From Heterotrichella gracilis (Eukaryota > Sar > Xanthophyceae > Tribonematales > Xanthonemataceae), in assembly GCA_032358255.1 (NCBI GenBank), contig JAULBX010018081.1, positions 22,936 to 86,935 on the forward strand: a stretch of DNA of 64,000 bases. The letters are read 5' to 3'. Below are positions 7,401 to 63,870 of the stretch, piece by piece. Position 1 is the stretch's first letter; the number at the start of each line of letters is the position of its first letter. The translations under genes and the position numbers were made by a program. The notes below the pieces were generated by a model. That model was not told the DNA's origin and ran no database searches. It saw only the letters and a list, made by a program, of their open reading frames with translations.

Positions 7401-8528
7401 CGGGGTGTGGGAGGCGGAATCTGGCTTGCACCAGAGCAGGACTATCTACTCCATTTGACACAATGTTTGCTTGTTTGATCCCTGTGAGATTAAGAGAATC
7501 CACATGCTTGATTGAAACAAACTCCATCGTGAGCATCACAATCCACACCAGTCAGTAAGCGCCAGCCCAGGCTGGGGGCACACACTGGCATATAATATAC
7601 TGACATATGATATACTGACATATGATATACTGGCATATATGTCACCCACCTCCAGCGCGCGAGTGCTTGGCGCTTGCTTGCTTGCTGGGCTGCCAGGGGT
7701 GTGGCGGCAGTGGCTGCGTCTCCCCGGTGATCAAGGGGCCAGTGAGGGCAGTCCAGCTGTCATCTGCGGCGCGAGGAAATGGGAGAAAACAAACCCTAAC
7801 AAATCCCTAACATTAGGGTCGGCGTAGCTGTCCACTGCAGGGCGGGGATGGACGGGGGTCAGAAAACCCTGACAACCCTAACCAAACCCTATTAAGGCTG
7901 GCGTAGCTGTCAATTGCAGCATGGGAAAGGTAAGCGTCATAAAACCCTCGAGGGATCCCTAACCACCGTGGCATATGGACTGTGATGCGCACCAGACATC
8001 ACAGCCTGGCACCAAAAACAGGAAATTGACTGGTCAATGAGATTAGGATCATTGTATATTATAGGTACCCCACCCACAACACTTAAGCTTTTATTGCTCC
8101 TCCGGCACTCTCCCATGCACCATCGCACCTGAGTCATCCTGGGCTTCCCGCATGGCCTGACACACAGCCTGCACCTGATCGGCACTCAGGCTGCCGAAAC
8201 CCTAAACTCTGACTGAACCGCACACAAGTAACGCCAATACCCAGGACACTCACCAGGGGCAGAATTTGATACATCTGTTCTCACACCTTCAGTACTAACC
8301 CCCCATTCCTGCATACCTGAGTAGTCCTGGCCTTCCCGCACGGCCTGCCGCACAGCCTGCACCTGATCGGCACTCAGGCTGACAAAGACCCGCCACGTGT
8401 CACCATCCCGCATGGCGCGGATCTCCTCATCCACATGCGAATCCTCCCCTGCCACGGAAGCTCCCTCGCCCCCGCTGCCCAGGCTAAACCCTTGGTCAGG
8501 GTTGGCAGCAGCCGGCTCCTCCACAACC
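4441..8528 (-). CDS. RS-domain, proline-rich protein, 5' end unresolved
   Basis: Exons 8528-8317, 7763-7650, 7298-7038, 6807-5950, 5647-4774 and 4495-4441 join in consistent phases to 790 residues; at least one upstream exon is missing because the 8528 end is an acceptor. The N-terminal part has a short helical stretch (VFVSLSADQVQAVRQAV). The 858-base exon encodes an RS region built on repeats of RRDARRGGD and RSPSPA, then a helix (LRVELLKTLRRCKDNPAIVE). The next exon is extremely rich in Pro, Gly and Ser. The C-terminus is KLEDYARNIDRLVAGPSLGS followed by a 17-residue last exon ending NTAKK. RS domains are typical of nuclear splicing and mRNA-processing factors; that role is inference. I do not recognise a named family. 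An exon echo of the first listed exon lies at 8126-8188. Confidence 0.7.
8126..8188 (-). repeat. exon echo of RS-protein exon 8528-8317
   Basis: This is an imperfect copy of 8317-8385, the 3' end of the upstream exon. It encodes LSADQVQAVCQAMREAQDDS against LSADQVQAVRQAVREGQDYS in the real exon and keeps its own GT donor (GTGCGA). The frame is intact over the copied part. It could be a decaying duplicate or a cassette exon. Confidence 0.75.
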
Positions 8529-10095
8529 CTGCAGCAGCATGTCAGTCATACACGCCGTTGCAGATCCTAGGACCTCAACCCCATGCCAGTGACACACGCG
8601 GCGGAAACCCTAGACCCTACACCCCAGCCACACAAACCATTGCACACCCTCGACTATACATGGGTCCACAAGCATGAATATTATGCGCCCCCAGAGGGCT
8701 GGGCACAGCAAAACCCTCAATAGGGTACGTCAGCATCTTGACCCACTTAGTTAATGAGTTAGGTACATGCATTCCAGCAGTACAGCCAGCTTAGCAGTCA
8801 GTTTTGCACATGCGGCGCCACGCATCTCGACCCACTTACCCCATCCTCAAAGCCGGTATGCACTTTTCACAGCCAGCACCCCCGCACCACCACACACAAA
8901 CCCGTACAGGTACCCCCCCGCTCCTCCTCCCCCATACCACCCTGCGCACCTCAACCTTGACAGCCCCTTTGCAACATCCCCCTTGCCCCCTAGATCACAT
9001 GGCCCAGTCTTTGACCTGCGTGTAGGGAGCACCGCTGAAGCCCCAGATTGGGCGGGGCCAACCTAGCGCACAACACAAACCCTGCGTTAGGGTATTGGTA
9101 GCCTTCTCGGGCTGCGGTGGGGTTTCATCCCGAGTGGCGCCAACCCAGGTTGCAACCCAAACCCTGCATTAGGGTTCTGCACAGGGTGCCATTCTAGCGC
9201 ACGTCATCATGCATCCGATACACGCGGATGGACGCATGCCCAATAAAAGGAACATGAATTCACCCTACAACTTATGTTCAAAGCCACGTAGAAAGGAAGA
9301 AAGAAATGGGACGCAGGGAGTTAGGCGGAGTTAAGCGGAGTTAGGGGGGCACTGGCTCATGTACTCGTCTTTGCTACACGGAGCCATTTTCCCAAGAGGC
9401 AATGTTTGCAGATCTGGCATTTGGGGTCCAATCTCATAGAATAGTGCGTAGGCTTGAGGTTCCTCAACTCAAAAGATCCATGTTTCTAGGGCTTCCAGGC
9501 CTGTGTTCAACCCTCACCTGCCCCCCTCCCGTGGTTGTGCCTGCCGGCTCACTTGCCAGTGCTTGAGCCAGGCCCTGCACGCACACAGCGTAGGGTCAGT
9601 GTGTAGGGTAATGATGAGAACGGTAGACTCTTGGATGTCACTATCCCAAGCTGCTAAACACGTTTTTTTTTAAATTAAATGTGTACAAGCTGCATGCAAG
9701 CTCAGTAAAAGTCGGTCATATGACAATGGCATATAAAGCCCTTCCAGCACACCATCTGCATGTAAAGTCATGGGGCAGGAAACCCACTACTCTAGGATAT
9801 CAGACCCATTTTATTGACACATTTTATTTGCGCAAACGACAATGACTTGGCGATGGGTGATTTAGCTGCATTGACACCCCCGGTGCAGAGATGGTTAAAG
9901 CAGTGGCAGGACAGGGCTGGTTGGCGCAAGGCATGAGGGACTGACTGCTAATCTGGCTGTATTGCTGGAACGCGTGTACATAAGTGAACAAGGACAAAGC
10001 CCTGGCTCCCCTTTCCCCCTCCCATATTGTGCACCTCACCCCACCCCCCGCCTCTTCAGCGCACCCCCCCGCCACCCCCCTCTCTCTCCGCTCAC
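8529..10095. other. gap with unresolved gene ends
   Basis: It should contain the missing first exon(s) of the RS protein and the last exon(s) of the SET gene, both on the reverse strand. Several short AACCCT...AGGGTT pairs occur at 9070-9180, and a GAGTTA[A/G]GCG triplet repeat at 9318-9345. A copy of a dispersed repeat (TTCCAGCAGTACAGCCAG core) lies at 8770-8812, with a reverse-strand relative at 9890-9972. I could not support a specific exon. Confidence 0.5.
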
Positions 10096-13000
10096 CTGCT
10101 TGTGCGTGGCCACATGCCCCCATGAAATCCGGATCTGATTCCAGTAGTGGAAGCTGTATGGGTAGCCAAGGGACTCTCCTGCGTTCAAGGGGAGTGGTCA
10201 GGGTTTCCAGCTGGGGTTTGCAGGGTTTCCACTGCACTGCGCTGTCCAAGTCGGAATAGTTAGGGCCTGCAGCTAGAATTTGTCCAGTGCAGGGTTTGCA
10301 GCAGGGTTTTGAGGGCTTCCAGGGGTGCGTCAGTACAACGAAACAAAATAAAAAAGGAGTCAGAAAATGATGAAACGTCGCGGCCCCTTATGGGGCATAG
10401 GCAACTCCCGGGTGGAGGAGTTCCCAATCCCCGGGACTGCGTGCAAAGCGCAACTCTTGCTCACACTGCAGCTAAAGGAGGTACAGGGATCCCCAGCAAC
10501 CCATGGGGTGTGTCACCACTGGTTCCCCACCCACCTCTATCCAACCCACCCGCTGCTGCCACCAGATTCCCCACCACCACCGCCGCCGGACGCAATGCCC
10601 CTGGTTGCCACCATAGCTTGTAACACCGCCCCCCTACCTACCCCCCAACACCCCCCACCCCATCACCCACCTGGCACAATGTCCCTGGCGGCCACTATAC
10701 ACTTAAGCTAGCTCCCCCCCTACCCCCACACCCACCACCACCCACCTGGCAGGATGTCCCTGGTTGCCATCATAACCTGGAAGGCCCACTTACCACCTCC
10801 CCCACCCCCCACCGTAAGGTACCTGTCCCCCACCCCCCACCCACCTGGCAGGATGTCCCTGGTAGCCACCATGACCTGGAAGGGCCACCACCCCACCGCC
10901 ACCTCCAGCAGCGCGCAGTTGCCAATGTGGGAGAAGTAGGCGCTCTTGCGGGGGCAGTCCAGGTCAATCACGTTGGGGTCGTTGATCTTGCCACTGATGG
11001 TGCCGTAGCTGGGGGCGCCTACGGGGACCAGATTTTGAATTTCTTTCCTTTTCTTATGAATAAAAATGATATACTTTCTTTTCTCTTTTATCTTGCCACT
11101 GATGGTGCCGTAGCTGGGGGCGCCTACGGGGACCAGTTTTTAAATTTCTTTTCTTTTCGTATGAATAAAAATAATATACTTTCTTTTCTCTTTTATCTTG
11201 CCACTGATGGTGCCGTAGCTGGGGGCGCCTGCGGTGGTGGGTGGGGGTTGGTGGGTGGGGGGCCCTTATCTTCCCACCCCTAGGGTTTTACTTGGGGGGG
11301 GGGATTGTTACTTAATTACAGGAATTTTACAGGAATTTTGAGACAGTCATGAGGGAGCCAACCCGGGCTCATTATACTGTTTTTTCCGGGGATCATTTTC
11401 TTTTCTTGCGAACCGTTGTTTTTGCATGTGAGCGCGCATTGCTCTGCACACCTCCGCTGCAGGGATGCTGCCCCTGTCCCAGCGTGTAGTCTATGCCTTT
11501 CTGAGCCGCGACGGGTACATTATTATTCTAATTCTAATTCTAATTCCCACCCCACCTGACAGGTACAGCGTGAAGTCCAAATGTCCAGGTCATGGGTAAT
11601 GTCCCTAGCCAGTCCCTCCCCTTCCTCACAACCCTCCTCCTTGTTCACCATCACCCACCACCGCCACCCACCCACCACTAGCCACCACCACCACCCCAGC
11701 CACCCCACCTGACAGGTACAGCGTTAAGTCGATGATGTCCAGCGCATGGGTAATGTCCCTAGCCAGTCCCTCCCCTTCCTCACAACCCTCCTCTTTGTTC
11801 ACCATCACCCACCACCGCCACCCACCCACCACTAGCCACCGCCACCACCCCACCCACCCCACCTGACAGGTACAGCGTGAAGCCGATGATGTCCAGCGCA
11901 TGGGTAATGTCCCTGGCCAGTACCTCCCCCTCCTCAAACCCTCCGCCACTGCCCACCACCACTGCCACCAACCACTGCCCACCACTGCCGACCACCGTCA
12001 CCACCCCACCCACCCCACCTGACAGGTACAGCGTGAAGTCCATGATGTCCAGCGCATGCGCAATGTCCTCAGCCAGCTCCTCCCCCTCTTGGAACCCCTC
12101 TTCCTTGTTGGTGAACATGAACTCGGTGGCAAACTCATCAATCAGCACCTCCCACTCAAAGCTGTTTTTGCCGTGGCGGGCAGCAAACGCGCGGTGCTCC
12201 CTGGGATTGCAGGTGGGGATGGGGTGGAGGGCGAAGGTGGGGGTGGGATGGGTGGTGGGAAGGGGATGGGTGAGTAAGGTGGTGCTGGGTGGTGGGGTTT
12301 GTGATGGGGTAGGTGGTGAGGTGTGGGGTGGGGTGGGGCACAAAGTTGATTTTGAGTTGAGACCCTACACGGGGCCCTACACGACCCTACACGTGGTGGG
12401 TGGGGTGGGGCACACGATTGAGTTGAGTTGAGTTGAGACCCTACACGGTACCCGGCCGCATCCAACGCACACAGTGTCGAGCATTGAATACATACACATA
12501 CACATGCGTTCCACCAATGCAGCCATGTCAACAGGCAGCCTTGCACATGCGGCGCCAACCAGCTGTATATTGCCAGGCCTTCTACCGTTTTGTGGACATG
12601 CACAACATCTAGATCCTTGGTCACAAGCAGAGGGCCCCCTGTGGCACAAATGTAAGCAACCAACAGTAATATGAGGTTTAGGGTGATAAGAGTGTAGAGC
12701 AATAGGGTTTGCGTTCACATTCGCGCCCTCCGCCTAAAGCACAAAGGTTGTGCATCATGCTTCAGGGTAGGAAGGGTTTCCTTTAGGGTCTTGAGGGACC
12801 TCCAAACCAGATGGAGGTCCCTGTGCTGTTTCGGGATCAGGGTTTAGGGTTTAGGGTTTAGGGTTTTGCACCTACCTGAGTGCCTTCCAGTCCCGGTCCA
12901 CCAGAAAGAGGCCCCCGTACATATCGATGACCTCTCCTCTCTTGATCGTCCTCCCCTTGTTGCGCAACCCATGCTGGCCCCGCAGCCCTACCCTAGGGTC

Positions 13001-14683
13001 GTCGGGGCCCACCTCGTACACCTCCAAACCCCCGTGAGGGTCGAGGGTTTCTGGCAGCTTATCGACATCGATGGGAGGGAACTTTCCCTTCACGCGCTTG
13101 GCGTTCACCGCCCTGAACGATCCAGGGGGAAAGGGGAATGAGGGAGGTGTGGGGAGGGGGTGGAGGGAGAGGTGCGTGCAGACGCGTGATAGGGAACTGC
13201 GGTGTCCGGGAGCTGCCTGACTTTTCCAAACTGCGGCGGGCTACTCGTCATTTCCTAACTGTTGTGTTTAATGCTTGACCTCACTGGCATGTAGAATTTA
13301 TGGCCTCCAGTTTCAGGCCCAGGGCCACATGGGCTGCCCTTGTCATTAAGGACCTGCAGGCTTAAACCATCCAAAAGTGGTACAAGCAATGTCAGGACAG
13401 AAATGTGTGGCGCAAGCTTGTGGTTGGCTGATTGCTGATCTGGTCTTTGTGCCGGTATGCTGTACTATAATATAAGTTTCAGGCCCAGCAGGACAAACCA
13501 CGCCACACCAAGCACCGGTACCAACAGCACAGCTTGCGTCATCGTGGGTTGCTAGTGACAACCAGGCACGGCAAGGACAGGAGTGCTTGAATGGGAATGA
13601 ATGCTCACTATATACAAGCTGGCTGACCTCCCCATTGCAACTACTGTCCCCTGGAGTTGGGGTAGCCAGCAAGCAAGCAGTCCTATGCTTGCCAGGTCAG
13701 ATCCCCAGAAATCGCCACTTACTTGAGGATCTTGGTAGTCAGGCTCCTTGTCGCCATACATGGTAAGTAAATCTAAAAGGGGAAAAAAAGAATTCGCCAA
13801 GACACCCTTCCACCCTTAACTCTTACGTTTGCGGTTGTGAGGAAAGTCAGAGGTCGCCCACTTACTTGAGTATCTTGGCCGTCAGGCTCTTCTCCACCAG
13901 CTTGTCCAGCTCCTTGTCGCCATACCAGGACTGAAGCACCTTCACCTGTGGTCCCTTCGCCTTGGCGGCCTTGCCTTGCTGGCTGGCGTACAGCTGGGCC
14001 ATGGTGGCGGGGATGGTGACATTCAACACCTGCAAATGAATTATTGGTTAGTGGCTGGGGTAGGTGACATTTAACACCTGCAAATACTAGTAGTTAATGG
14101 CGGGGATGGTGACAATGAACATCTGCCAATTTATTTTCAGGCGGGCGGGCAGACCAAGCAGTGAGCTTCAATAGGTGGCACAGCTTGGTTGGCCAGAAGG
14201 GTGTGGGGCTGCCCCCAGAGGTGTACCAGAAATTGCACTGCTTGATGGCTTGTACCAGGGAGGGTTGGCGCTAGGGTTTTCGAACGGGTTTCCCCGGGAT
14301 CTGAGAAGGAAGAAAGATATGAAGGGATCGTGCGATACAGAGCACATGGGGCAAGCCACGAAAGGCTACAACGCAGCTGACGGAGGGTTTCCAGAACAGA
14401 AATGGTAGCGCTTGGCGCTTTTTTTCTTTTCATTTTTTGTACCCATGTCTGACCAGGCTGTCTGACCAGGATGGTCAGAAGGAGGGTGGGACTGCCCAGA
14501 GGTGTACCACTGGTGGTGGGTTGCATCGGGTAGGGTTGACGGTAGGGTTTTTCGTCCTTTCCATACCCGTATCTGGCCATGACTCAGCTCTGGAAGGCCC
14601 TTGTCGAGGTCCACACCACCCCACTCTCCAGCATAGTCTGGCTGAAGGATCGGGTCTGGGGCCTCCCCGCCGTTGGACGCCAT
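10096..14683 (-). CDS. divergent SET-domain protein, 3' end unresolved
   Basis: Exons 14683-14567, 14029-13866, 13112-12876, 12200-12019, 11018-10845 and 10178-10096 chain in phase to 319 residues ending at a GT donor, so at least one more exon follows. The start is the ATG opening MASNGGEAPD. The first SET segment is at about residues 142-161 (GLRNKGRTIKRGEVIDMYGG, matching the usual GxGLxA...IxKGExIxEYGG). The C-terminal SET part is at about 245-305, including VATRDILPGESLGYPYSFHYW, matching the AxRDIxxGEELxxYG pattern. The usual NHSCxPN motif is degenerate (SHIGNC), so lysine methyltransferase activity is uncertain. Its introns hold the densest exon-echo arrays in the window (exons 2, 4 and 5). 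The SET call is good; the substrate is unknown. Confidence 0.75.
10580..10888 (-). repeat. exon echoes of the donor end of SET exon 5
   Basis: The sequence around the true exon 5 end (10842-10888, CACCTGGCAGGATGTCCC on the plus strand) recurs at 10742-10790, at 10669-10700 in degraded form, and as a weak trace near 10580-10615. Each better copy keeps the reverse-strand donor and a few upstream codons for the VATRDILPG segment. C-rich tracts separate the copies. Confidence 0.7.
10986..11240 (-). repeat. 106-base tandem repeat copying the acceptor end of SET exon 5
   Basis: The core CTTGCCACTGATGGTGCCGT begins at 10986, 11092 and 11197, spaced 106 and 105 bases. The first copy is the start of true exon 5 (acceptor TAG at 11019-11021). 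The others repeat the acceptor, the codons for GAPSYGTISGK and the following AT-rich intron sequence. The first two copies are nearly identical, which suggests a recent duplication. Confidence 0.9.
11553..12050 (-). repeat. four-copy tandem array of SET exon 4 and its donor, period about 154
   Basis: The motif CACCTGACAGGTACAGCGT starts near 11554, 11707, 11860 and 12017. The last is the real exon 4 donor end. The three others repeat about 95 bases of coding sequence, keep the donor and, read on the reverse strand, keep frame: for example NKEEGCEEGEGLARDITHAL against NKEEGFQEGEELAEDIAHAL in the exon. Variable CCACC-rich spacers lie between copies. Confidence 0.9.
12838..12868. repeat. interstitial telomere-like TTTAGGG tract
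   Basis: About four plus-strand TTTAGGG heptamers. On the coding (reverse) strand they become CCCTAAA and begin within about 10 bases of the SET exon 3 donor (12876/12875). Shorter runs occur in other introns, for example 26358-26374, 29765-29785, 45715-45737, 62495-62510 and 63778-63795. Confidence 0.9.
13715..13762 (-). repeat. exon echo of SET exon 2 donor end
   Basis: A shortened copy of 13858-13925. It reads MYGDKEPDYQDPQ on the reverse strand against WYGDKELDKL...AKILK in the exon, with the middle deleted. The donor CTCAAGTAAGTGG is preserved exactly. Confidence 0.7.
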
Positions 14684-16205: not shown

Positions 16206-19200
16206 ATGGGGTTCTTCAAAAAGGTGTTTGGCACTGACCCCAAAAAGCAGCAGGGCCCAACCCTGAACAAGCAGACAGGCACCTTCAAGTTCAGGACCAT
16301 CAAGGACAACTACTCTACCATTGACCAGGTGCAGGCGGCCCTGCGCCAGAATGGGCTGGAGGCCTCGCAGCTGATAGTGGGGATAGACTACACAAAGGTG
16401 CGTCTGGCATGCATCCACCAGCCTCCAGACACGGCTGTGCGCCTAGGGTTTGGTTGTGGGCTTAGGTGAGGGTGAGAACCTTTGGCACCTTGTGCAATGT
16501 AAGTCCCTGAAGAACAGCATTGCTAGTCTAGACCAGGTGCAAAGCGTCAGAACTCTGGGCTGGAGGCGTCCCAGCTGATGGAGGGGGTAGATCACACAAA
16601 GGTGAGCGTGGCGGACGAGCACCAGCCTCGTGGGACGAAGCTGTGCATTTAGGGTTTTGAGGGTAGAGATTAGGGTTGTAGGTCAGAAGTGGGGCACTTT
16701 CAAGTGTTGTTGTAAAAGGGCCAGAGGTCTTGCAGCTGATTGTGGGGATAGACTACACCAAGGTGGGTGCAAATCGCAGTTTCTTGCACCTGCTGGCGAG
16801 GCGCATGCAACCCCCGCCAAGGGTTATAAAACCTTATGTCTCTCTAATGAAAACAGGAAAGTTACCTTTCCACTTCCAAAAAGTCAGAAACCCTACACCC
16901 CAAACCCCCTGTGTTTGCTTTTACTGGGCAATGATTGGACTGCGCCACTGGCTTGAATTTCCTTGCTAAGACAGCATTATGGTGGGAACTTTTTTACGTT
17001 GTGTTCCCCACTGTAGAGCAATGAGTGGACTGGGAAAACCAGCTTCAACGGGCAGTGCCTGCATGCCATCGGCCCCACGCCCAACCCCTACGAGCAGGCC
17101 ATCGCCATCATCGGGAAAACCCTAGCGCCCTTTGATGACGACAACCTCATCCCCGCGTACGGCTTTGGAGATGGTGGGTAGAACGGTTGCTTAAGGTTTA
17201 GGGTTTGGACACGGTGCGTTGGGGAACTGTCTAGTTGGATGGCTACAGAGCTATGCCGTGAATGGTGCACGCCGCGTAATAATTGTAAGCATATGCACAC
17301 ACACATGCAAAACCCCACAGACCAGCCCCATCACTTGCAATGACCACGCATTGGTTACATGCATCTTACACGCAACCCCGATACACTCATCGCTCCAACC
17401 ATACACTCATCCCGTCTTCCACTCACCCCGTACCCCGATCCCCAACCGCAGCCACCACCAATGACCGCATTGTGTTCACACTATCCCACGACGGCTCCTC
17501 TACCCACACCATGCACTCTGCGCACACACAGACATCGGCGGCCGCACTCTGTGCACATTGCATCTCACCATCATACCGCCCCACTCCAGTAATCCCTTCC
17601 ACTCAACCCCCCACCCCCCACCGCAGCCACCACAAACGACCGCATGGTGTTCACACTGTCACACGACGGCGCCCCCTCCCACGGCTTCCAGTCCCTGCTG
17701 CAGCAGTACCGCGCAGCCACACCAGCCATAGACCTGGCAGGGCCAACCTCCTTTGCGCCAGCTATTAACCAGGCGGTGCAGGTGGGTGGGGTCGATGGAG
17801 TGGGGCTGTGGGGGGGGGGCACCCCAAAGTGGATGGTGGGACGCTAGGATATGAATAACACAATAATGATGGAAAGCCAGCTGCAGTCCGAAGACCATAG
17901 GCAATTCCCGGGTGAAAACAATGGCCAATGACGGGATCGAACCGCTGACCTTGGGCTTATTAAATCTGGGATTAGACGCTGTGCTGTGGCAAAGGGCATG
18001 ATTTCAACCCATTCTGGTGTTTTCATGATGCCCGCCTTGGTCTATTCATGGGTTTTCATCCTGTTTCGTGTCCCGCGCAGGTTGTGATTGACAGCGGCAT
18101 GCAGTACCACATCCTGCTGCTGGTGGCGGATGGCCAGGTCACACGCGGGTCAGCCACAGCAAGTGGCCAGCTCAGCCCCCAGGAGCTGGCTACAGTGAAC
18201 GCCATTGTGGCGGCCAGGTGAGGACAGGGAAACTTGAACGCTCAAAAAACTGAAAGTGACAGTGCCATTCTAAGCGTTGATGCAAATGCATGGAAAATAA
18301 ATCATGGCTGTCGTGAACGCAATGGTGGCGGCCATGTGTGGGCAAAAACATGAACACACTGAAACCTGGATGTGGGGGAAGAGTGCCTTTGATTTTCGAC
18401 TTAAATGCGTTTTTTTTTTGCTGCATGCCTTCATCGCTCCATGGCTTTAAGTGTTTTTGCTTTATCTGACAATGAAAATCGCCCCTCTCTTTCGCCTGAC
18501 TTCCCCTTTTTCTCCCCCCCCACAGCTACTTCCCTCTTTCCATCATCATGGTGGGGGTTGGGGATGGTCCCTGGGACATGATGACAGAATTTGACGACAA
18601 GCTGCCCTCCCGCCAGTTTGACAATTTCCAGTTTGTGAACTTCACGCAGCTTATGGCGGATACGCGGGGTCAGGACCAGGCCAGGCGCGAGACACAGTTT
18701 GCACTCAGGGCCCTCATGGAGGTGCCTGAGCAGTACAAGGTAAGAAAAAATTAAAATCATCGTTGGGCTTTGGTTTTGGTGAAGGCGATGGTTGTGTGGA
18801 GACAATGTGAAGGGGAAAACCCTCAGCCAATAATATAAAGTGCTGTATCTCAAGATCTCACACACATCCACTAATGGTCATATTACCATGCACATTCGCA
18901 TCCGAATCCTCATCCGAATCCTCATTCATTATCCCCATCTTTGCAGGCGGTCCTCAGCCGCAATCTGGTCGGTGGGCAACCCCGTTTGGACAGGCAGCTA
19001 CCCCAGGTTAGGGTATTGGGCCTGCCACCCGCCGCCAAGGCAGCAGCAGCTGCGGCAGTCGGACAGATGGGGCAGGGAGGGCCTGGTGCAGGGTACGTCC
19101 ACCTCAACCCTCAGGGCTAGGGCATTGAGTGCATGTATGCTCAAATGGTACTCCTCCATCTTGCCATCCAGGATCACGCCATCCTCCGACTGCGGGGAGA

Positions 19201-28180: not shown

Positions 28181-28440
28181 CAGTAAATTGTCCAGTTTTT
28201 CACCAAACTTACTGTCCGTGCGCGCGGAGCGCAACGCGGAACGCAGCTCAGTAAGTTTTCCCAGTTTCTACCAAATTTACTGGTCCGGTGCGCGCGGAGC
28301 GCGACGCGCGGAACGCAAACTGCGCGCAGGACAGTAAGTTGGCCCAGTTTTCACCAAACTTACTGAACCGGGCGCGCGGAGCCCGGCGCGCGGAAAAGAA
28401 CTGCGCAGGACGGTAAATTTGCCCAGTTTTCACTAAGCTT
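28181..28440. repeat. GC-rich palindromic tandem array, about 3.3 units
   Basis: Units begin with CAGTAA near 28181, 28249, 28332 and 28411 (spacing 68, 83, 79). Each has CCAGTTT[T/C], ACCAAACTTACTG, and a core rich in GCGCGCGGAGC. AACTTACTG and the following CAGTAAGTT are inverted copies, so each unit can fold into a hairpin with a GC-rich head. Confidence 0.85.
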
Positions 28441-45348: not shown

Positions 45349-47707
45349 CTGCGACACGCTCGCCCCGATGATGGCCGCACTGACCAGCATGTAGTGCCAG
45401 AATGCCGCCGCGTGTCCCTGCTTGGCTGTGCGCGTGTGCATGGTGAAGAGGTAGGTGAGGTAGTCAACCTCGTGGCGCAGGGTGGACAGGGTGGACTCGA
45501 TCACGTTCAGGCGCTCAGCGATGTCCTCCACTTGCTCAATCTGAGGGAAGTGGGTTTAGGGGTTTAGGGTCTTGGGTGGCCAGGGTGGACTTACTCACGT
45601 TCAGGCGCTCAGCGATGTCCTCAACTTGCTCAATCTGGGGAAGGGGTTTAGTGTTTGTAATATAGGGTTTAGGGTCAGGGATGTCCTCGACTTGCTCAAT
45701 CTCGGGGAGGGGTTCAGGGTTCAGGGTTTAGGGTTTAATACTTTATGCTGGGTGTGAGACAGGTGGGGTTCAGGGATGCAGCGGCATCAGGAAAAGAAGC
45801 ATGCATCTCTTTGTTTAATAACAATATACTAAATAGATTAAAACGCCACCGCACCTGCACGTAGTGCTTTGGGTCCAGCCCGTGGCCGGTGAGGTTGCTG
45901 TCCTTCATCTCCTTGTGGCTGAAGCGCTGCCACTCAAAGGCTGTGCCCTTGAGGTCCTCCTGGTTGACGGTGAAGAAGGACAGGTCCACCAGCAGGGACC
46001 ACTGCATGGAGGGCCGCTGGTTCATCAGGAAGCAGATCTTCCAGGGGCCCTGCAGATTAAGAGGCGGGGAGCAGGTTAGCTGGATAATAGAAATGCATTG
46101 TGGTGGCAGGGGAGAATCCTAGGGCGAATGGAGATTTGGGACCAAGGTATATTAGGTGTTCTGCACGGGTGGGGATTTAAAGACAGATAGCATGCACTCG
46201 AAAGTGCGGTAAGCGGCACGACTGGTTGGCCACCATCTGCCACACTGGAAACAGTGTCAGTTAAGCCTTGGCTCTAGGACTGGGGTGAGGCATACCCAGA
46301 CATGCTAACCTGGCTTCAAAGCTGGAAAGCAAATACTTACTTACTTACTTAGCATGCACTGGACGGGATGGGGGAGTACATTAAACATGCAAGCCCATAC
46401 CCCGCCGTGACATCCAGTTGGACATCAGATTTGTGCAAGATCAACAATGGGGTGTACAAACTGCCAGGAACAAGCTGCTGGCATACAAGTTCTTAATGTA
46501 TTTTTATGGCCTGCACAGGTACACTGGCCTACATGTATTTTCTAGGCTCCCCACGGCGCGCAGCCTTCCCTGCACCACCCCCTGCCGCCACTCACCCTCC
46601 CCCCCGTTGCGTGCACATTCATCTCCCCCTCAGCCACATCCCTGGCCACATGCACCTGCACCTGGTGCTGGTCATACACAGTCACGTCCACAGTGCCCCG
46701 GTTGTGGTCGGTGCCGTCCTTGTTGGAGACCTGCGGAGGTGTACAGTACACGGGTTAGGGTTTTGGTCGGTGCCGCGAAGGTGGGAAAGACTTTGGGAGT
46801 TGTCATCGGTGCCGTCCCTATTGGAAACCTGCAGGTGTCAAGTTAGGATTTAGGGTTGTGGTACTGGTTTGATGCACCATGTGGGAATGTGTGGATCGAG
46901 GGTTGTACGGTGCCGCCATTGTTGGGCAGTGTGATGTGTGTGCAATGCCGGTTAATACACCTCCGTGAAAGACTCAACAATCTCAGGTTGAAGCAAATTT
47001 CACACCCTCCAGCTATACACCACATGCGACGCGGCAATACATTCTATTCACCCTTCAAAGGTGCAAGTTACAATGCTCTAGCTACAGCTGAAGTACAGCT
47101 TTTTAAATATGCTGGTAGTGCAAGGGTGACTGCTACTCCTGCCTCCCGCTGGTTGTGCCGCCGAACAGCCTAACCACCATTGCCCTTGGCTAGGGTTTTT
47201 TAGCCACGCACCGCAAACCCTGCTTCTATCACCACGTTTGTTGTGTGGTCGTCGTGCCCGTCCCACGCGATGTGCTCCCACTGGTTGTCGGGCAGATAGA
47301 CAGACATGCAGTCCTGCCTGCAGGGGAGGGGAGGGGGCAGGGGGGGTAGTCAGCAGCAAAGTACAAGGGGATGGGAGATCGGAGGGAATAATCCAAGGGG
47401 TTAAATTACACCTGCTCAGACTGCAGGTGATAAAGGGCAAGTGCTTTGTTTTGAGCTGCTGCCTATTGAGGGCCTATGCAATATTGCAGGCCGTTGGCTG
47501 CTATGCAGCATAGACACCCCCATGGCACTCCTACCCCTTCACGTGTACTTAGGGTTGTAGGGTTTTCAAGTGTGCACCACTGGCTGGCGTGAGGGCCACT
47601 CACCGGCCTGCAAACAGCCGCCACGACAGCGCCGCCGAGGTGTACAGCTGGCAGGCGAGGCACAGCACCAGGAGCTGCCAGGTGGCGCCTAGCCGTGGCA
47701 CCTCCAT
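45349..47707 (-). CDS. p24/emp24-family cargo receptor, tail exon unresolved
   Basis: Exons 47707-47604, 47317-47212, 46730-46596, 46049-45855 and 45540-45349 join in phase to 244 residues. A signal peptide (residues about 1-27, WQLLVLCLACQLYTSAAL) is followed by a GOLD domain (CMSVYLPDNQWEHIAWDG, GTVDVTVYD, GPWKICFLMNQ). A coiled coil (IEQVEDIAERLNVIESTLST) leads to the membrane span beginning WHYMLVSAAIIGAS. The order is that of p24 proteins, which cycle between ER and Golgi in COPI/COPII vesicles. The expected short cytoplasmic tail with FF/KK signals was not found, so a last exon lies below 45349. The 1.2 kb of introns around exons 3 to 5 carry echoes of exon 3 and exon 5. Confidence 0.8.
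45584..45710 (-). repeat. two exon echoes of p24 exon 5 start
   Basis: CTCAGCGATGTCCTC[C/A]ACTT from exon 5 (45514-45542) recurs at 45608-45637 and, shortened, at 45680-45708. The acceptor-side sequence CTCAATCTG is kept. The first copy carries its own downstream GTGAGTAAG donor. TTTAGGG heptamers separate the copies. Confidence 0.85.
46757..46835 (-). repeat. exon echo of p24 exon 3 start
   Basis: TCGGTGCCGTCCCTATTGGAAACCTGCAGG (46805-46834) repeats the acceptor and first codons of exon 3 (46708-46737). A shorter fragment sits at 46766-46780. The copied part reads VSNRDGTD against VSNKDGTD. Confidence 0.75.
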
Positions 47708-51945: not shown

Positions 51946-54495
51946 TCACGTGTCCCATGTCCAGGGGTAGCTCTTGCCTGTGCTGCTCTGAGGCGGTGGC
52001 ACGCGGGTGGGTGGGGTGGGCTGCTGCTGGTGCCCCTCCCAGGCCCAGATGGGGGGTGCGGTGGAGGGGCGGGAGGTGGGGGCTGCCTGTGGGGGTGGGG
52101 TTAGCAATGACGCATCAGTTCTCGCAGGGAATGGGACCAACGTACAACCTACCGATGATGCACTACCGGGTGCTCTGACTTCAACAATTGTGCGCCATTG
52201 GCATTGTCACAGGCAGCGGGCAGTGCAGGCGTTTGCGCCAGGCGATGGTCAACAGGAACACCGTGCGCGCATGTTGCTCCTTTTGGCATGCCCACTTGCA
52301 CTGAATGCATGCATGCCCACCATCCAGCATCACAGGGGCAGTTGGCCAGTAGGCCCTCCGTACGCATCGGGACCCGCAAGGCTGGGGAACCAACTCATGC
52401 AATGCAATTGGCTCACAGCAGGCTGTCGTGTGGTGTGCCCGCTGGGGGGCCTCGCAGCTTTGATTTTTCCTTTCTTTCTTTTCCCCATCCCAACCCCTAC
52501 TACCCCACCCCCACCTGCTGTTTGTGTGCCTGTGGGTGCGGCGCCTCCTCCCACTTGTAGGGCGCCTCTGGGTGGTAATCCGGACCCCCAGGCGCCATTG
52601 AGCGGTGGCGCACGCGGTACTGGGGCGCAACCCATGCCTCGTTGGATGCACCCAGGTTGAACCAGGAGTCCTGCGGGGTACCACCGACGTGTCACCAGGG
52701 AGTCAAATCTATAAATGATTGGAAATATTCTCCCCCACGGCGCTTTATAAGTAAAGTACGGTAAATACACGAATCAAAGAAAAGCATTAGAGGAAATGCG
52801 CCATGAATTCTCACCGTGGGATGGTGGGTACTAAAGAACCCAATAGCACTGGCAAGGGGAACCAATGCCAAGCCCACATGCACCCTTTGGCCCCTTCGAT
52901 GCATCGCCCACCACGTCCAACCCCTTGCACTTGCCCACTTTCTCCAACCCAACATGAACCCTGCCTTTGCCCGCCTATCCGCCGGTCCACACCACTTTAC
53001 TCCATTAGCGTGCCACCCCCATATGCCGATCCCCCCCATCCTCCCCACACGGTACTAACCCATCCCCAGCACACCCAACCCCCCTATTCCCCCATACACA
53101 GTACCGCAACCCTAAACCCTCAATTCGCTCCTCACCCCAGTGGTCACCGCCTCCCGCTCCTCCACCTTTGCCACCTCCTCACCCAGGCGCCGCTGCTGGC
53201 TGCGGTATGCCGCCAGCGCCTTGTTGTCATGCGTCACGCTGCTCTCCCAGGAACGGCGGCTGGCGGGCTGGGGACAACGGGGAGATAGTGATTTTGGTAG
53301 ATTTTGAGGGGATTTCAGGTGTCATGTGGAGAGCTGCCTTGAGGACTAGGGTGTGCGACACATGCTGTTCCTCAACTGACCGCCCGGGTTGCAGCACAAT
53401 CGAAGAACTTGGCTGTGTGCTCATGATCAGCGCCCTGTGCGCCCCCCAAGGTATTTTGCATCTCATGAAAATCTCCAGAAGCGTGCTGTGAACCTAAGTG
53501 ATGGCTCAAGAGTCTTTAATACAGTCTAATGCATTAGAACATGAAGAAAATGGGCAATGCTGGTATTTAATTTTTCGCCACAGTATACAACTCACCGGGT
53601 CGCTCCCAGCCCCTGTGTGGTCCGACTCCCCTGCCCACGGCATGGCCACTGAGGGCCGGTAGGTGTTGCTGGCCACCTCAGGCATGTAGGATGCGGTTTG
53701 AGTCAGCCGCCGCAGCTGCTCTTTGGCACTCACCAGGGCGCCTTGGGAGCTGCGCGCAGGGCGGGTGCATTTTAGGGTTTAGGGTTCAAGAAAACCACCT
53801 CAATTGTGGACAAAGGACACTTGGCGCTCACCAGGGCGCCTTGGGAGCTGCGCACAGGGTGGGAGAATAAATAGAAAATGCAAAGAACACTCACAAGTTG
53901 ACTGTGCCGGGAAAGAGCCACACAGCCACACGCGGCCCCATACACAGAGGTTGACACTAACACCCATGGATGGTTTCCGTGGCCACCATGCCAGTGGTGG
54001 CAGACTCCGCATTGTGTTCCATCCCCCTGGTGGGTTAATTATGCAAAACAGCGTACAGTGTCTAGCCGCGACTGCTGCACTGGGCTAGCCTTCCACACCC
54101 CTGTACCTGTCAGTGCATTGTTGCTTGGGAGATTTCTGCGGTCCATACAGGCTCTCACGCAGCCGCTCCTCAGTCTCAGCATGCTTTTGAGCCTTTATGC
54201 GCCAGTACTCCTGTTGATAACAGTGGATGGGTGTAGGCTTTGTGGAATGGTATATAACAAGATGTGGGAAGGATGGCGGGTGACTGTACACAGGGCTGGC
54301 ACTGGTGTACTTCCAGGAGACTTCGCAGCAAGCTCTTTCGAGTTCTGGTTATGCTCTGTACCCTTTTGGCGTGATGCACGCTGCAAAGGTACCACTGACC
54401 TGCTCCTTTTGATACTCCTTGTCCTGGTTCTCGACGTTGGCGAGGCTGGGAGACTTGATGGGGCGGTTCAGGATGCTGCTGCGCTGGGTCAACAT
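51946..54495 (-). CDS. unrecognised 260-residue protein, helical then Trp/Pro-rich
   Basis: Exons 54495-54400, 54210-54107, 53749-53596, 53267-53136, 52670-52515 and 52086-51946 join in phase to exactly 260 residues from ATG to TGA. Residues 1-60 are charged helix (NQDKEYQKEQEYWRIKAQKH), and 115-160 hold another (DNKALAAYRSQQRRLGEEVA). The last 100 residues are rich in Trp, Pro and Tyr (WFNLGASNEAWVAPQYRVRH, RPSTAPPIWAWEG, ending YPWTWDT). There is no signal peptide or enzyme motif. The composition resembles small microtubule-associated axonemal proteins, but that is only an impression. An exon echo of exon 3 is at 53824-53862. Confidence 0.75.
53824..53862 (-). repeat. exon echo of exon 3 of the 260-residue gene
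   Basis: CTCACCAGGGCGCCTTGGGA at 53829 exactly repeats 53729, with the following acceptor GCTGCGC[A/G]CAGGG. It reads SQGALVSAK as in the exon. A telomere-like TTTAGGGTTTAGGG lies between the copies. Confidence 0.85.
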
Positions 54496-56242: not shown

Positions 56243-59200
56243 ATGGCGCCTCGCCACGTGGTTGCCCTGCTGCTGGTTCTCCCATGCCTGCTGGCCAAGG
56301 AAGCGGTCATGGGGCGCACAGTGGTGTACCTCCCTGGTTGGGCATATGGCACCAGTGGGGAGCTAGACACGGTGGGTGGCGGGCAGTGGGGATGGCGGGG
56401 TTGAGAAATCTCGTAATTCGTGCGTTGAAACCATGAACATGCCGCGCAGCACCATGCAATCCATTGAATTGCAATCGGAGTAGGGTGTCAGAACAGCCTG
56501 CAGTGCATGTATTTTTACAAGCACTGTCACATAGTCACGTCATGTGCTCAAGGTGCGATCCCATACCTGTCGTTGCACACTCCTCCAGGCATCCATGCCC
56601 ACCCCTTCCATGCCCACCCCACCGCAAAAGCCTGCCTCGCATCCCATTCCACCTCCCACCCCACAGCAACATGCGCCATTCAGCTAGGTTGACCCACGCA
56701 GGTGCCCCTCTTCACTGCACTCTAGGATGCACACCATGGATCTGTCTAAGGGAGGAGCCATATACCCACCTGCATGTGTCATCTAAAGCAGGAATCGCGT
56801 GCACACACTGCATCATCACCCAGTCTCTTCTTGTTGCCGCCAATGCCATCCTCCTGAATTCCATTACTAATCCTAATGAAGCACTTAATTTGCTGCAGGT
56901 CAACTTCCGCACCGCCTCCTTCAGCGGTGTGACCCACCTGGTGTTTGCATTTGGGGGGTTTGACACCACAAAGTACAGCATCAGCGTCACTCTGTACAAT
57001 GAGATGGAGGCTTGGAGGTGCGAGGCATGGGACGGGGGGTAGTGCAAGGGGGTGGGGGACAGTGGGGTCATCAGATGGGGGCATGCTGGAGGCCGCCTTC
57101 TTCCGCTCTTGTTGAGAAGCCAATTTAGCAATACTGCCTCCCATTAGCCATGGCCCCCGCTACATCCGCTCTTTTTATGCAGAAGGGCAGCATGCTGTGA
57201 GGGCCGTGTGGCCGATGCAAGGGGCAGGGCATGTGCTCTATGCTATAATGCAGCAGGCATATCGGAGCCATGCGCATGCATTTGTTGGCAATTGCACGTC
57301 AACGCCCGGTCAAACTCCACGCAACTCCTACAGTAGTCATAGATTACCTATGGCGCCGTAAGAAACAAATAAAATATATACCAAAATATCAAAATACCAA
57401 AAGCTGCATTTCAGGCCAGCAATGTCCCCGTCACCCCTGCTGCAGCCAGTTCAAGGCCATCAAGACCCGCTACCCTTCCTTGAAGCTCATACTCTCCCTT
57501 GGGGGCGGCGAGAAACAGTGGACCGACGCGTTCACCAATGCGACAAAAACGGCCAAGGCAAGAAGGTGTGCAACCTGCGAGGCAGATGTACAGTTCTCGT
57601 TAGGCTGATTAAGGTCAAGTCACGTCCATTCCAAGCTATATTCGTATTGTAGGGATGACTGGTAATCTGGCGAGTGCAGATTAGCAATGCTGCTGGAACA
57701 GCCACCCACCATGTCCTATTGCTGCTAAAAAGCACCATGCCCTGGACGCCATTTGCCTTGCTCATATAGGGCTGACTGATATCTGGCTAGTGCCAGATCA
57801 GCAATACTGCTGGAACAGATTAGCGCTGCTGGAAAGCGCCAAGCCCTGAGCGCCATGTATCCTGACTCACTGGCCCCTGTGCAGCACGCTCATCGCCAAC
57901 AGCGTGGCCTTTGTCCTTCACGAGGGGATTGATGGAATCGACATAGACTGGGAGGGGATCCAGTCCGACCAGGTGCCAGATCTCACCCTGTTCATGACAG
58001 AGCTGCGCCAGGTGGCGGATGCACAATCAGCAGCAAAGGGGAGGGCGAAACTGCTGCTGTCCATGCCGGTAGGGTGCGCCGGGTTTTGTGTCGAAGGGGA
58101 GGGCGGGCAGGTGGGAACGCTGATTGCAGCATGACTCCTGTGATAAAGACGGGAACATATGACTGTCTGAAAGCATGCAAACCGCATCCGAAGGATTGCA
58201 TAAATATATTTTTCATCATTTTTGACTATTCTGATTTTCTCCTGTTATTTCACGTAGTATTTGGACTTCTGCATAACTTTCAGGCAATGGCTAACACGTT
58301 TACAAAAAAGAACATTTTTCAATTCACTTCAATCTTTTACCCTACCGTAATACACAAACCCTCCCATCTATTCCTCCAGGCAATGGCAGACCCGTACGAC
58401 GTCCCCGTGTACACATCGGCCCTCGCCCCCCTGGTCGACTGGCTGGCCATGATGAACTACGATTACTCCGACGCCTGCTGGTCAGATGGCCTCAGCTTCC
58501 ACACAGACCTGCGCATCACCCAATCAGCAACCCAGACGCTGGTAGCCGGGGGTTGGCCCCCCGGGAAGCTGCTCCTTGGCCTGGGGTTTTATGGCCACCA
58601 ATGGGCCGCCAAGAGCGCCGCGCATGTGGCGCCGGGGGATCCCCAGGTGGGTGGGTGCAGCACGCCGGCAGCGCGGCATTACGACTTTGATACAGAGAAG
58701 GGCTTTTGAAGGCACATTCCTCCCGCAAAGTATTGTTGGCAAAGGGCAACAATTGCCTGGCCACCAAGCCCCTTGGCAGGGGTTTCAGTGTGTTTTGTGC
58801 CAAAACTTTGCACCATTTCACTGTGGTTTTTAACACTGCGAAGAGCTCACCACTAGCCATGTGGTGCGAAGACCCTGGTCAAGGGCTCACCAGGATTTTT
58901 CTGCTTTTCCAGGTTGTGGAATGCAAGTCTCTCACCCCCTCCTTTGGCGCCATCATGACCCGGCTGAAGACCAGTGGGGGCACGGTGCATGTGGACCCCT
59001 CTGCACACAGCGCATACCTCACAACCAATGGAACCACGTGGATCGATTTTGACATCGAGGTGCGTTGGCACACTGTGGGGTGATGGCTGGTGACCGATGG
59101 CCGTTCATTGCACTTGCATGCAATTTGGATTATAAAATAAATAAAATATAAATCATTACAATTTCAATAAACTTATTTTTTATTACAAGAAGTATATTTC

Positions 59201-60035
59201 ACCCTAGTCAGAAGCGAGTGCGTCACCATGGTGACCAACAGCAGTGGCACTGGACTAAGACATGGCGCAAAGGTGCCACTGTGTTCCACCTGATCCCATG
59301 CACATGGCATGCAGGAGACCTATGCCGCCAAGATCCAGTACGCCACCACAAAAAGTCTGGGTGGCATCATGGTGTGGGATGCATCGCTGGACACGCCCGA
59401 ACAGCGCCTCCTCAAGTTCATCACAGGTGCGCTTGGCTTAGTGTTTCCGATTTTGGATTTTGGGTTCAGCGCCTCCTGAAGGTCATCACAGGCGCCTCTT
59501 GAACTTCGTCACAGGCGCCAAGCGCACCTCGCCGCCCACCCGCATGTGCAATGGGGGGTACCTGGGCACAGGAAAGTGTGCGGATGCCAAGGCGTGCTGC
59601 AGCGCGTACGGGTGGTGCGGGAAGGGGCGGGGGTACGAGTGTGGCGCCCAGCCGCCCCCGCCTCCAAGCCGGTATGCATGCGGCGCCAACACCTGCCACG
59701 CGACCGAGTGCTGCAGCCAGTGGGGATACTGCGGCACAACTGGGGATTACTGCGGCGCAAAATGCCGGGGCGGGCTGTGTTGGTCCTACCCGCCGCCGCC
59801 AAAGCGCAGGCCGCCACCTGGCAAGCGATCCCCGCCGCCGATAAAGCGCAAGCCCCCGCCCGGTAATCTGCGGAAGCCTCCGCCGCGCAAGCCCCCCTCT
59901 GCCCTGCCCCACGCATGCAAGCACATGGTGTGCGCTGCCAGTGAGTGCTGCAGCCAGTATGGGTACTGCGGCAAGACAGCTGCCTACTGCGGCGCGGGGT
60001 GCAGGGGCGGGCCATGCGGCAAAGGCAAGGGGTGA
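56243..60035 (+). CDS. secreted GH18 chitinase with three hevein-type chitin-binding domains
   Basis: Eight exons (56243-56371, 56899-57017, 57446-57565, 57885-58068, 58380-58646, 58913-59059, 59315-59426, 59515-60035) join in phase to exactly 532 residues. A signal peptide (MAPRHVVALLLVLPCLLA) precedes a GH18 barrel: VVYLPGWAYG, LILSLGGGEKQW, the catalytic DGIDIDWE at 139-146 with acid E146, and WLAMMNYDY near 205-213. The last exon adds three CBM18/hevein modules (about 371-403, 415-448, 494-528), each with CC-S-x-x-G-[WY]-CG. A linker of KRxPPPGK units like an extensin lies between the second and third. It should cleave chitin, in defence, feeding or wall remodelling. GH18 joined to CBM18 with this linker is unusual. 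The intron before exon 4 carries a tandem repeat. Confidence 0.94.
57640..57855 (+). repeat. dispersed-repeat pair in chitinase intron 3
   Basis: GATGACTGGTAATCTGG...GCAGATTAGCAATGCTGCTGGAAC (57654) recurs as GCTGACTGATATCTGG...CCAGATCAGCAATACTGCTGGAAC (57772), followed by a short echo of its end. Related text occurs on the reverse strand near 9890-9972 and 13395-13460, so this is a dispersed family. Confidence 0.65.
58277..58303 (+). repeat. acceptor echo of chitinase exon 5
   Basis: TTTCAGGCAATGGCTAACAC (58279) resembles the true exon 5 acceptor CTCCAGGCAATGGCAGACCC (58375). Only about 20 bases are shared. Confidence 0.5.
59411..59520 (+). repeat. triplicated exon 7/8 boundary in the chitinase
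   Basis: CGCCTCCTCAAGTTCATCACAGG (59405) is repeated as CGCCTCCTGAAGGTCATCACAGG (59470) and GCCTCTTGAACTTCGTCACAGG (59494). The first is the exon 7 donor end; the last supplies the exon 8 acceptor. The second copy also ends in a usable CAG. The whole intron between exons 7 and 8 is thus made of copies of the exon 7 end. Confidence 0.85.
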
Positions 60036-61928: not shown

Positions 61929-63750
61929 ATGCTCTACGCGTGTAGTCTGCGCCTCCCAAAAACTCATTCCGTTGACCATCCCTCATATGTTTCGCACAAG
62001 CAGGCAGCCAAGTCCTTTTCATCTGCTAAGCACGCGTGGCACAGCGGCAGCTCCTGGCGCCCCGCATCACCCGCCAGCTGCTACCCTGGGGTTGCACACC
62101 CGCCCACCCCGCCCTTCCACGCGCTGCTGGCTGTCGCCACAGCCAACGTGTGGGAGCGAACCATCCTGCTGCTCACGTCCCTGGCTACTGTCAAAGACAC
62201 ATTTGACCTGCTGGTGGTTGATGAGCTGAGCATCGACCCCACGCGCAAGGTAAGGCCAACAAACCCTAAGACCCTAACCCAGCTGTATGATATAGAGGTT
62301 AGGGTTTAGGAACACCTTTGACCTGCTGGTGGTTGACGAGCTCAGCATCAACCCCACGCGCAAGGTGCGTCCAAATCAATGATCTAGGGCTTAGATGTAG
62401 GGTTGAGGGACACCTTTGACCTGCTCATGGTGGACGAGCTCAGCATCGATCCCACGCGCAAGGTACGGTCACCACACCAAGATTTTTATTTAGGGTTTAG
62501 GGTTTAGAATTTAGGGACAGCTAACCATACACGCAAGTTACGGGCAGGGGGTTAAGCCACAGCTGGGCAGTTTGTATGAATACCCCCCTCACCGCACCTG
62601 GCAGTCCCAGCAAGCCCTCAAACCACGCAGAAGTACTGCTTAGGCGGAGACGGCCAACAATGCCTGGACCCTACAATAAAAAAATATTTGTCCACGTGTC
62701 AGATCATTAGGCGCCCCATCAGATTTGTGAAGGCCCAAACCGCCAAACAACGGTCAATCCAACACAATATAGAAACCCCAATCCCCACACTTGCCGCCAC
62801 CATGTGCACAACGCAACCTTGTCACCCACTGCGGCGCACATCTATTAGTCATGCAAAACCATCGCCTGATTCATTCTTGGTGCCCACCGCAGTCGCTCGA
62901 ACACCTCAACATCACGTTCATCTCCCCTCGAGAGCCGCTTGGGGTGACGCACAACTGGAACCTGGCGTGGCAGTACTTCCTCAACCACACCCACCTCACG
63001 CACTTCTTCATCATCAACAACGATGTGCTCATCCCGGATGGCGTGCTCACAAAGCTGATGACGGCGATGAGCATTGAAGAAGGCAAATGCGGTCTTGTCA
63101 CCCCCATGAGCACCATGCACGGTAAGGGGGCCTAGCTCCACATCCGTATTGAAGAATAATGCACGGGGGCATGTATTGCTTTGTAAAGAAATCACCACAT
63201 GTGCATCGTCATCCATGGGCTGGTGCCAGATGGCGTGCTCACAAAGCTGATGGGAGCCATGAGCTCCGATGAAGGTAAATGTGGCCTAGTCACGCCCATG
63301 AGCACCATGCACGGTAAGAGGGTTTCAGCGCCGGATCCGTATTGAAAAACAATGCACGGGAGCATGTAAAATAAGAATCACCACTTGTGCATCGCCGTCA
63401 ATGGGCTGTTGCCAGATGGCGTGCTCACAAAGCTTCAAAGATGAGCTCCATTGAAGGCAAATGTTGCCCTTTCGCGCCCATGAGCACCATGCATGGTAAG
63501 GGGCGTGTGTGGTGAGGTGTTTTAGGGCCACGGGTGCAAATCAACTTCGGAAATATGCACCCACGTACTGCTTTTTGAGTTTTCAGAAGCTGGGCATGTA
63601 CCCAGGTACTACTATTTTAAGTTTTCCGAAGCTGATCTACCCAATCGTTGTCATCAATATGTGTGTATTTATTGTATACACCTTTAACCCTGATGTTGCT
63701 GTGTGTGGTGCCAGGTCTGGGGTTCACGAGCGACCGGGACAGCATTGAGG
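61929..63750 (+). CDS. GT2-like glycosyltransferase, incomplete at both ends
   Basis: Three in-phase exons are supported: one ending at 62249 (open from an ATG at 61929, though the true 5' boundary may be later), 62893-63121, and a weaker 63714-63750. The first has the GT-A start: LLAVATANVWERTILLLTSL then FDLLVVDELSIDPTRK. The second has LNITFISPREPLGVTHNWNL and FFIINNDVLIPDGVLTKLM, where NNDV stands where GT2 enzymes have the metal-binding DxD. The rest of the gene must lie beyond the window or in a weakly defined downstream exon. A wall-polysaccharide or glycan role is likely but unproven. Every supported exon has echo copies in the following intron. Confidence 0.72.
62310..62465 (+). repeat. 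two exon echoes of the first GT2 exon
   Basis: The last 54 bases of the exon ending at 62249 recur at 62311-62365 and 62410-62463, reading TFDLLVVDELSINPTRK and TFDLLMVDELSIDPTRK. Both keep frame and a GT donor (GTGCGT, GTACGG). Just upstream of the first copy, telomere-like TTAGGGTTTAG/GAACACC offers an acceptor AG. Confidence 0.88.
63222..63505 (+). repeat. two exon echoes of GT2 exon 62893-63121
   Basis: The end of the exon (63033-63125) recurs at 63226-63318 and, with a deletion, at 63414-63500. The first keeps PDGVLTKLMGAMSSDEGKCG and the ATGCACG/GTAAGA donor; the second has lost frame. A constant tail (TGCACGGGAGCATGTA...CACTTGTGCATCG) is copied with each, so the unit is about 190 bases. 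Confidence 0.9.
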
Positions 63751-63800
63751 TTAGGGTTGTTATATTTTATGTTGATAAACCCTAAACCCTAAACACTGAT

Positions 63801-63870
63801 GTTGCTTTTTATGGTGCCAGGTCTTGGGGTCACGGGCGAAGGGGACGGCATCGAGTTCGGGGTTTTTTTA
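63801..63870 (+). repeat. exon echo of GT2 exon 63714-63750
   Basis: CTGATGTTGCTTTTTATGGTGCCAGGTCTTGGGGTCACG repeats the acceptor and start at 63689-63728. It reads GLGVTGEGDGIE against GLGFTSDRDSIE. CCCTAAACCCTAAAC lies between the copies. Confidence 0.85.

Follow-up and report, generated by a model that had tools for sequence, protein, structure and literature searches.

The window, as we call the whole 64-kb stretch of DNA analyzed, is eukaryotic and holds 15 intron-rich predicted gene models, which were obtained with a home-made gene finder and then curated by hand, from sequence alone. Two early parameter sets of the gene finder fused genes, and a third set was used. For some exon ends, the manual choice was made with the exon copies described below in view, and the curated set omits 12 predicted exons, six of which are such copies and six of which are otherwise weak or short. 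Pfam analysis revealed matches above the cut-off for Smr, Copine together with U-box, SGT1/ecdysoneless, PDZ, glycosyltransferase family 8, EMP24/p24, and Fer2 ferredoxin (of the chloroplast/cyanobacterial kind), and likewise for GH18 and chitin-binding domains, marking a chitinase gene. The ferredoxin, together with the TTTAGGG motif described below, would fit a green alga as the probable source. The last gene of the window matched glycosyltransferase family 2 only below the cut-off. No Pfam match was obtained for the models that we take to be SET-like and ZNHIT2-like, and the presumably SSNA1-like model gave weak coiled-coil matches only. For the unnamed gene g13, a PDB search gave nothing at an E value of 0.1. 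Relatives were also sought in viral and genome contig collections, where none was found except one 14-residue match, which was not used. The 64 curated introns total 25,030 bases and have a median length of 319 bp.

The window was compared with itself under a low-complexity filter. At 42 bits or more, this gave 32 direct repeat pairs less than 600 bp apart and no direct pair at a distance above 600 bp. Inverted pairs numbered three within 600 bp and two farther apart. No false repeat loci appeared in shuffled sequence (15 shuffles at each of five thresholds). Furthermore, we scanned the 64 curated introns at either end, counting as a match a score of at least 32 that was also better than in the other introns tried. 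At 18 of the 128 junctions, the adjacent intron carried a copy of the exon end; the best score of these 18 exon ends in other introns was 28. The controls gave no match, neither with inverted sequence (0 of 128; best score, 27) nor with the intron on the other side (0 of 98; best score, 25). The local direct pairs and the junction scan together confirmed the original prediction that introns carry imperfect copies of neighboring exon ends, including the splice site. We conclude that this pattern of exon-end echoes is real and striking.

In total, we described by hand 22 arrays with 34 copies in eight of the 15 gene models, 12 of them at donors and 10 at acceptors (Table 1). Selection of the arrays was manual and followed the self-comparison, whereas the counts from the self-comparison, the junction scan, and the placement of loci (see below) are unpicked. 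Four arrays were added in this way to the 18 scan matches. The ZNHIT2-like e4 donor and the p24 e6 donor lie outside the 128 scanned junctions, the copy of the glycosyltransferase-like e3 acceptor lies downstream in a region outside the scan, and the SET-like e10 acceptor was scanned, but its exon match is too short to score. The echoes were clustered by gene (P = 0.0096), with 11 of the 18 scan matches in two genes and seven gene models without any, and the predicted spread over at least 11 of 16 genes was not reproduced.

Table 1. Exon-end echo arrays, mainly exonic repeat loci, and example TTTAGGG/CCCTAAA tracts in the window
Gene	Feature	Positions	Strand	Remarks
SET-like	Acceptor, exon 7650-7763; two upstream echoes with TTTAGGG-type tracts	7755-7965	-	Exon part 9 bp; weakest array; no scan match
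SET-like	Donor, exon 8317-8528; one echo (66/74 exon bases identical)	8127-8391	-	Scan match
SET-like	Donor, exon 10845-11018; three echoes	10569-10906	-	Scan match
SET-like	Acceptor, exon 10845-11018; two echoes, 105-bp unit (38/40 exon bases identical)	10979-11234	-	Scan match
SET-like	Donor, exon 12019-12200; three echoes, unit of about 154 bp	11546-12109	-	Scan match
SET-like	Donor, exon 13866-14029; one echo	13706-13889	-	Scan match
SET-like	Acceptor, exon 13866-14029; two echoes	14005-14130	-	Scan match
Copine/U-box	Donor, exon 16206-16397; two echoes	16343-16768	+	Scan match; Pfam
Copine/U-box	Acceptor, exon 17627-17781; one echo	17416-17682	+	Scan match
Copine/U-box	Donor, exon 18081-18217; one echo, GT lost	18187-18374	+	Scan match
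Copine/U-box	Acceptor at 19796; one echo containing a stop codon	19651-19852	+	Scan match
Copine/U-box	Acceptor at 20464; one echo, AG lost	20304-20502	+	Scan match
ZNHIT2-like	Donor at 26042; one echo, 37 aligned codons, no indel	25930-26274	+	Outside scan; no Pfam match
SGT1/ecdysoneless	Donor, exon 30129-30375; one echo	29982-30183	-	Scan match; Pfam
p24 (EMP24)	Donor at 45349; one echo (50/52 exon bases identical)	45123-45400	-	Outside scan; Pfam
p24 (EMP24)	Acceptor, exon 45349-45540; two echoes, the nearer a possible in-frame 36-bp cassette	45480-45737	-	Scan match
p24 (EMP24)	Acceptor, exon 46596-46730; one echo	46701-46862	-	Scan match
Unnamed (g13)	Acceptor, exon 53596-53749; one echo, TTTAGGG-type tract between copies	53723-53863	-	Scan match
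GH18 chitinase	88-bp intron (59427-59514) ending in a copy of the upstream exon end	59402-59514	+	Scan match
Glycosyltransferase-like	Donor at 62249; two echoes (echo donors at 62364 and 62462)	62196-62478	+	Scan match; weak Pfam match
Glycosyltransferase-like	Donor at 63121; two echoes, unit of about 192 bp	63012-63503	+	Scan match
Glycosyltransferase-like	Acceptor at 63715, second copy at 63821; either copy may be the exon	63677-63891	+	No scan match
	Mainly exonic repeat loci	6452-6743, 20608-20889, 37117-37271, 59706-60012		Spacings divisible by 3
	Example TTTAGGG/CCCTAAA tracts	12839-12866, 62489-62507, 26357-26374		First two in introns

The duplicated units straddle the splice site and do not end at it. 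In the exon part, 1748 of 2105 positions aligned (1640 of 1959 if array a10, whose alignment overruns a short exon, is left out), and in the intron part, 1962 of 2433. Since the intron part still aligns alongside the exon part, the duplicated unit extends across the junction and is more than an exon copy. The spacing from parent to first copy was 48 to 207 bp, close to the 40 to 190 bases predicted for the units. In 14 of the 22 arrays, the aligned exon and intron parts filled this spacing to within 15 bp, showing that the copies lie head to tail; in the remaining eight, 24 to 96 bp separated the aligned parts. One acceptor array (10979-11234) has a 65-bp AT-rich stretch between copies, with no such stretch found upstream of the first one. 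The direct orientation and the adjacency of the copies are those of small tandem duplications. Copy boundaries showed no clustering at splice sites: for 20 arrays, the exon share of the unit was between 0.13 and 0.66, and it exceeded 1 in the two others, where the alignment overruns the unit. Exon-part identity spanned 70% to 96%, and the arrays therefore differ in age, which agrees with the suggestion of a continuing process that left copies of many ages.

Next to the echoes, the window holds repeats of other kinds. A GC-rich tandem array with units of about 68 to 83 bp lies between genes at 28181-28440; no other local repeat was counted in intergenic DNA. Stretches with weak similarity to one another, in both orientations, at 8759-8802, 9940-9983, 12502-12563, 20180-20236, and 29137-29185 are possibly a small dispersed repeat, which 57650-57818 possibly joins (by eye only). 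Self-complementary stretches were noted at 19486-19578 (96 aligned bases, 81%), 39946-39980 (35 at 97%), and 26415-26446 (32 at 94%).

Under a stricter complexity filter, the repeats fell into 24 loci, of which 19 were at junctions, three intronic, one exonic, and one intergenic. A stricter margin gave 27 loci, with 18 at junctions (including the weak locus 6452-6743), three at exon edges, three intronic, two exonic, and one intergenic. Of the 23 nonexonic loci, 19 spanned a junction, while random placement was expected to yield 8.2 window-wide and 12.0 within genes (P = 0.002 for the latter). Units of about 50 to 200 bp overlap a junction by chance about half of the time, given the median intron length. 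If a copy beside a conserved exon stays recognizable 1.5 or 2 times longer, the genic expectation rises to 14.0 or 15.4 and P to 0.0145 or 0.07. Thus, the predicted enrichment at junctions held against random placement within genes but faded under a 2-fold survivorship correction. Intergenic repeats of the same kind would have spoken against a link to junctions; a single locus was found versus 7.5 expected, or versus 5.6 when the correction was strongest (P = 0.0025 to 0.013). Because the loci are clustered by gene, all P values that treat them as independent are optimistic. Intron geometry, together with the slower decay of copies next to a conserved exon, accounts for much of the surplus at junctions, if not provably all of it, and the scarcity of intergenic loci is less well explained.

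The echoes retained GT or AG in 28 of the 34 copies (one counted after a one-base shift), although these motifs had in part served to recognize the echoes. The placement of one copy, the third echo of the 12019 donor, was one base off and was corrected for part of the counts. In 26 copies, the splice-site score exceeded the 5th percentile of genuine sites. Only four copies passed the score and frame criteria for an in-frame cassette, the remaining 30 having no second splice site that both scored well (above the 10th percentile of genuine sites) and kept the frame. The same four are the only ones with the second in-frame splice site that characterizes tandem exon duplication. Six echoes were taken as exons by the gene finder, among them two in-frame ones in the copine gene (51 and 27 bp) and one in the p24 gene (36 bp). 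The suggestion that echoes create cassette or mutually exclusive exons is therefore tenable for a few copies on sequence criteria and fails for most. Furthermore, 38 of 52 exon-part indels (32 of 44 without array a10) were not multiples of 3, and the copy spacing at junctions was divisible by 3 in 15 of 34 cases. The pooled dN/dS between exon and echo was 0.354 (bootstrap, 0.277 to 0.447), with three rows trimmed (d3 to its last 13 codons, a5 to its first 28, and a10 to its first 11); simulation gave 0.51 (SD, 0.08) for a neutral echo and 0.09 under full constraint. One stop codon was seen versus 5.8 (SD, 2.4) expected (P = 0.023). These data suggest that some echoes may be, or may have been, coding.

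At the four mainly exonic loci, the spacings of all seven repeat pairs were divisible by 3 (246, 180, 114, 177, 144, 90, and 237), as expected if the same process strikes exons and selection removes the frame-breaking products. One of these loci (59706-60012) is an ordinary chitin-binding domain repeat, and two (6452-6743, once classed as junction, and 37117-37271) rest on weaker exon models.

The window is also rich in TTTAGGG-type tracts. Tracts of 8 bases or longer numbered 61, 49 of them in introns, versus 10.4 in shuffled sequence, and the excess of TTTAGGG/CCCTAAA rose from about 6-fold at 8 bases to about 35-fold at 10 bases. There were 149 nine-mer matches, while none of 19 rearranged units gave more than 21. 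Seven of the 22 arrays held a tract of 10 bases or longer, where echo-free introns would predict 1.9 (P = 0.001) and the genes that carry the arrays 2.5 (P = 0.003). In tests with six-mers, tracts lay in 12 of 22 intervals versus 6.6 expected (P = 0.017) and at 10 of 22 boundaries (P = 0.004 to 0.02). By eye, a position of the tracts at copy boundaries was convincing, but we dropped this reading, since six-mers often match by chance and the longer tracts were not nearer to copy boundaries than under random placement (P = 0.34 to 0.41). Moreover, 13 of the 22 arrays were free of tracts of 8 bases or longer, and tract density per gene did not correlate with echo rate (rho = 0.16; P = 0.57). G-quadruplexes were rejected as a cause, with motifs in three of 22 arrays versus 5.6 expected.

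The echoes have left their mark on intron length. The 17 echo-bearing introns had a median length of 553 bp, and the other 47 had a median of 286 bp (P = 2.4 × 10^-5). When the echo spans were subtracted (calculated by hand from intron lengths and array spans), the median fell to 328 bp and the difference was gone (P = 0.23), so that intron length tracks the echoes. The spans total 4063 bp, of which 3566 bp lie inside curated introns and make up 14% of the intronic bases; about a quarter of the examined introns (17 of 64) hold decayed copies of exon ends. In this window, the rate of exon-end duplication is apparently high. In one intron of 64, that of the GH18 gene at 59427-59514, the donor and acceptor regions clearly copy each other, and for the next-best intron P was 0.015 before correction for 64 tests. 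The 88-bp GH18 intron may therefore have arisen by tandem duplication; as a general process in this window, such intron birth was rejected.

Intron lengthening is usually ascribed to transposons and small insertions. For the window, we consider recurrent short tandem duplication combined with a sieve imposed by splicing to be the probable explanation of the echoes, which would make it a route of intron growth. Short tandem duplications, with parent-to-copy distances of 48 to 207 bp, would arise repeatedly in the genes of the window. Those internal to exons would survive only when in frame, while those straddling a splice site would be tolerated whatever their length, since splicing would go on at the authentic site and the extra copy would fall in the intron. 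There, it would decay mostly as noncoding DNA, and introns would grow by duplication of exon ends with the protein unchanged. The parent copy is presumably the spliced one, most echoes would be functionless, and the events would be products of break repair or replication slippage. Counting against this model are the low dN/dS, the few stop codons, the six echoes accepted as exons, the retention of GT or AG in 28 of 34 copies, a junction excess that survives 1.5-fold survivorship, and the shortage of intergenic loci.

Part of these observations would fit echoes that are functional alternative exons or splice sites under selection, in the manner of tandem exon duplications and mutually exclusive exons: dN/dS lies below the neutral simulation, stop codons are scarce, 26 of the 34 echo sites score like genuine ones, and the gene finder accepted six echoes. 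However, most copies lack a frame-keeping second splice site, frame-breaking indels are present, and just 15 of 34 spacings are divisible by 3, which renders selection for function improbable as the explanation. We read most echoes as probably decaying decoys, a minority of which are possibly used. Alternatively, splice junctions or transcription could raise the duplication rate above that of other DNA, as the original prediction implied in proposing a process that targets junctions. The residual excess speaks for it (19 junction loci versus 12.0 within genes and one intergenic locus versus 5.6 to 7.5), but survivorship weakens this excess, the ends of the copies are not gathered at splice sites, echoes are concentrated in few genes, and most data do not require targeting. 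We regard such targeting as unlikely.

A further possibility is break repair at telomere-like sequence, in which TTTAGGG-type tracts would be fragile, or would be scars of healing, and the filling in of broken ends would generate the duplications. As described in PMC6410037, interstitial telomeric sequences are scars of break repair and also fragile sites, and according to PMC8355091, CST-guided Pol alpha fill-in, which uses telomere machinery, can yield small tandem duplications. The link between interstitial telomeric tracts and CST-Pol alpha tandem duplication is one that we ourselves infer. The abundance of the tracts, and of the longer ones in arrays, agrees with it; their indifference to copy boundaries, the majority of arrays without a tract of at least 8 bases, the unrelated gene-level density, and the lack of G-quadruplex enrichment do not, and we think this origin possible but rather unlikely. 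It is quite doubtful that exon-end duplication is a main engine of intron growth in the lineage, driven by break repair at intronic TTTAGGG-type tracts in which telomere end-processing enzymes (telomerase, CST-Pol alpha) act at internal breaks, and enriched at junctions beyond geometry and selection. An assembly artifact or collapsed alleles, for which the one assembly examined gave no sign, would be extremely improbable, as the copies differ from the source exon part by about 4 to 30%, with indels, at 22 places in eight genes.

Recurrent duplication sieved by splicing shares features with several known systems. The small tandem duplications at break fill-in (Schimmel et al. 2021, PMC8355091) are likewise direct head-to-tail copies of short length that lack a dispersed source. 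They are described there as short insertions (<100 bp) and were studied as fresh mutations in mammalian cells, whereas the copies in the window have spacings of 48 to 207 bp, are old, and are visible because splice sites shelter them. In tandem exon duplication, as described by Ivanov and Pervouchine 2022 (PMC9013439), exonic sequence also has homologues in introns of its own gene; unlike there, most copies found here comprise part of an exon and a single splice site. The same paper gives the proportion of exonic bases with an intronic homologue as about 2% in human, 0.08% in fly, and 0.06% in worm, compared with 7.1% at 80% identity or more here, a figure obtained by different methods and from one window. 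In intron gain by tandem genomic duplication (PMC3443670, PMC4974935), the duplication supplies splice sites as well; here, an existing intron is lengthened, and a signature of gain is clear only in the GH18 intron. Introners (PMC9860276) likewise stand for recurrent events in introns of many genes, but within the window there are no dispersed copies, no direct pair being more than 600 bp apart. Among the literature matches listed, which left most subscription journals outside their coverage, we recognized no description of recurrent exon-end echoes.

Echoes leave decoy splice sites, most of them of near-authentic strength, and these lead to testable predictions on alternative splicing and on errors in gene annotation. 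In addition, pairs of exon and echo let neutral decay be measured beside constrained sequence.
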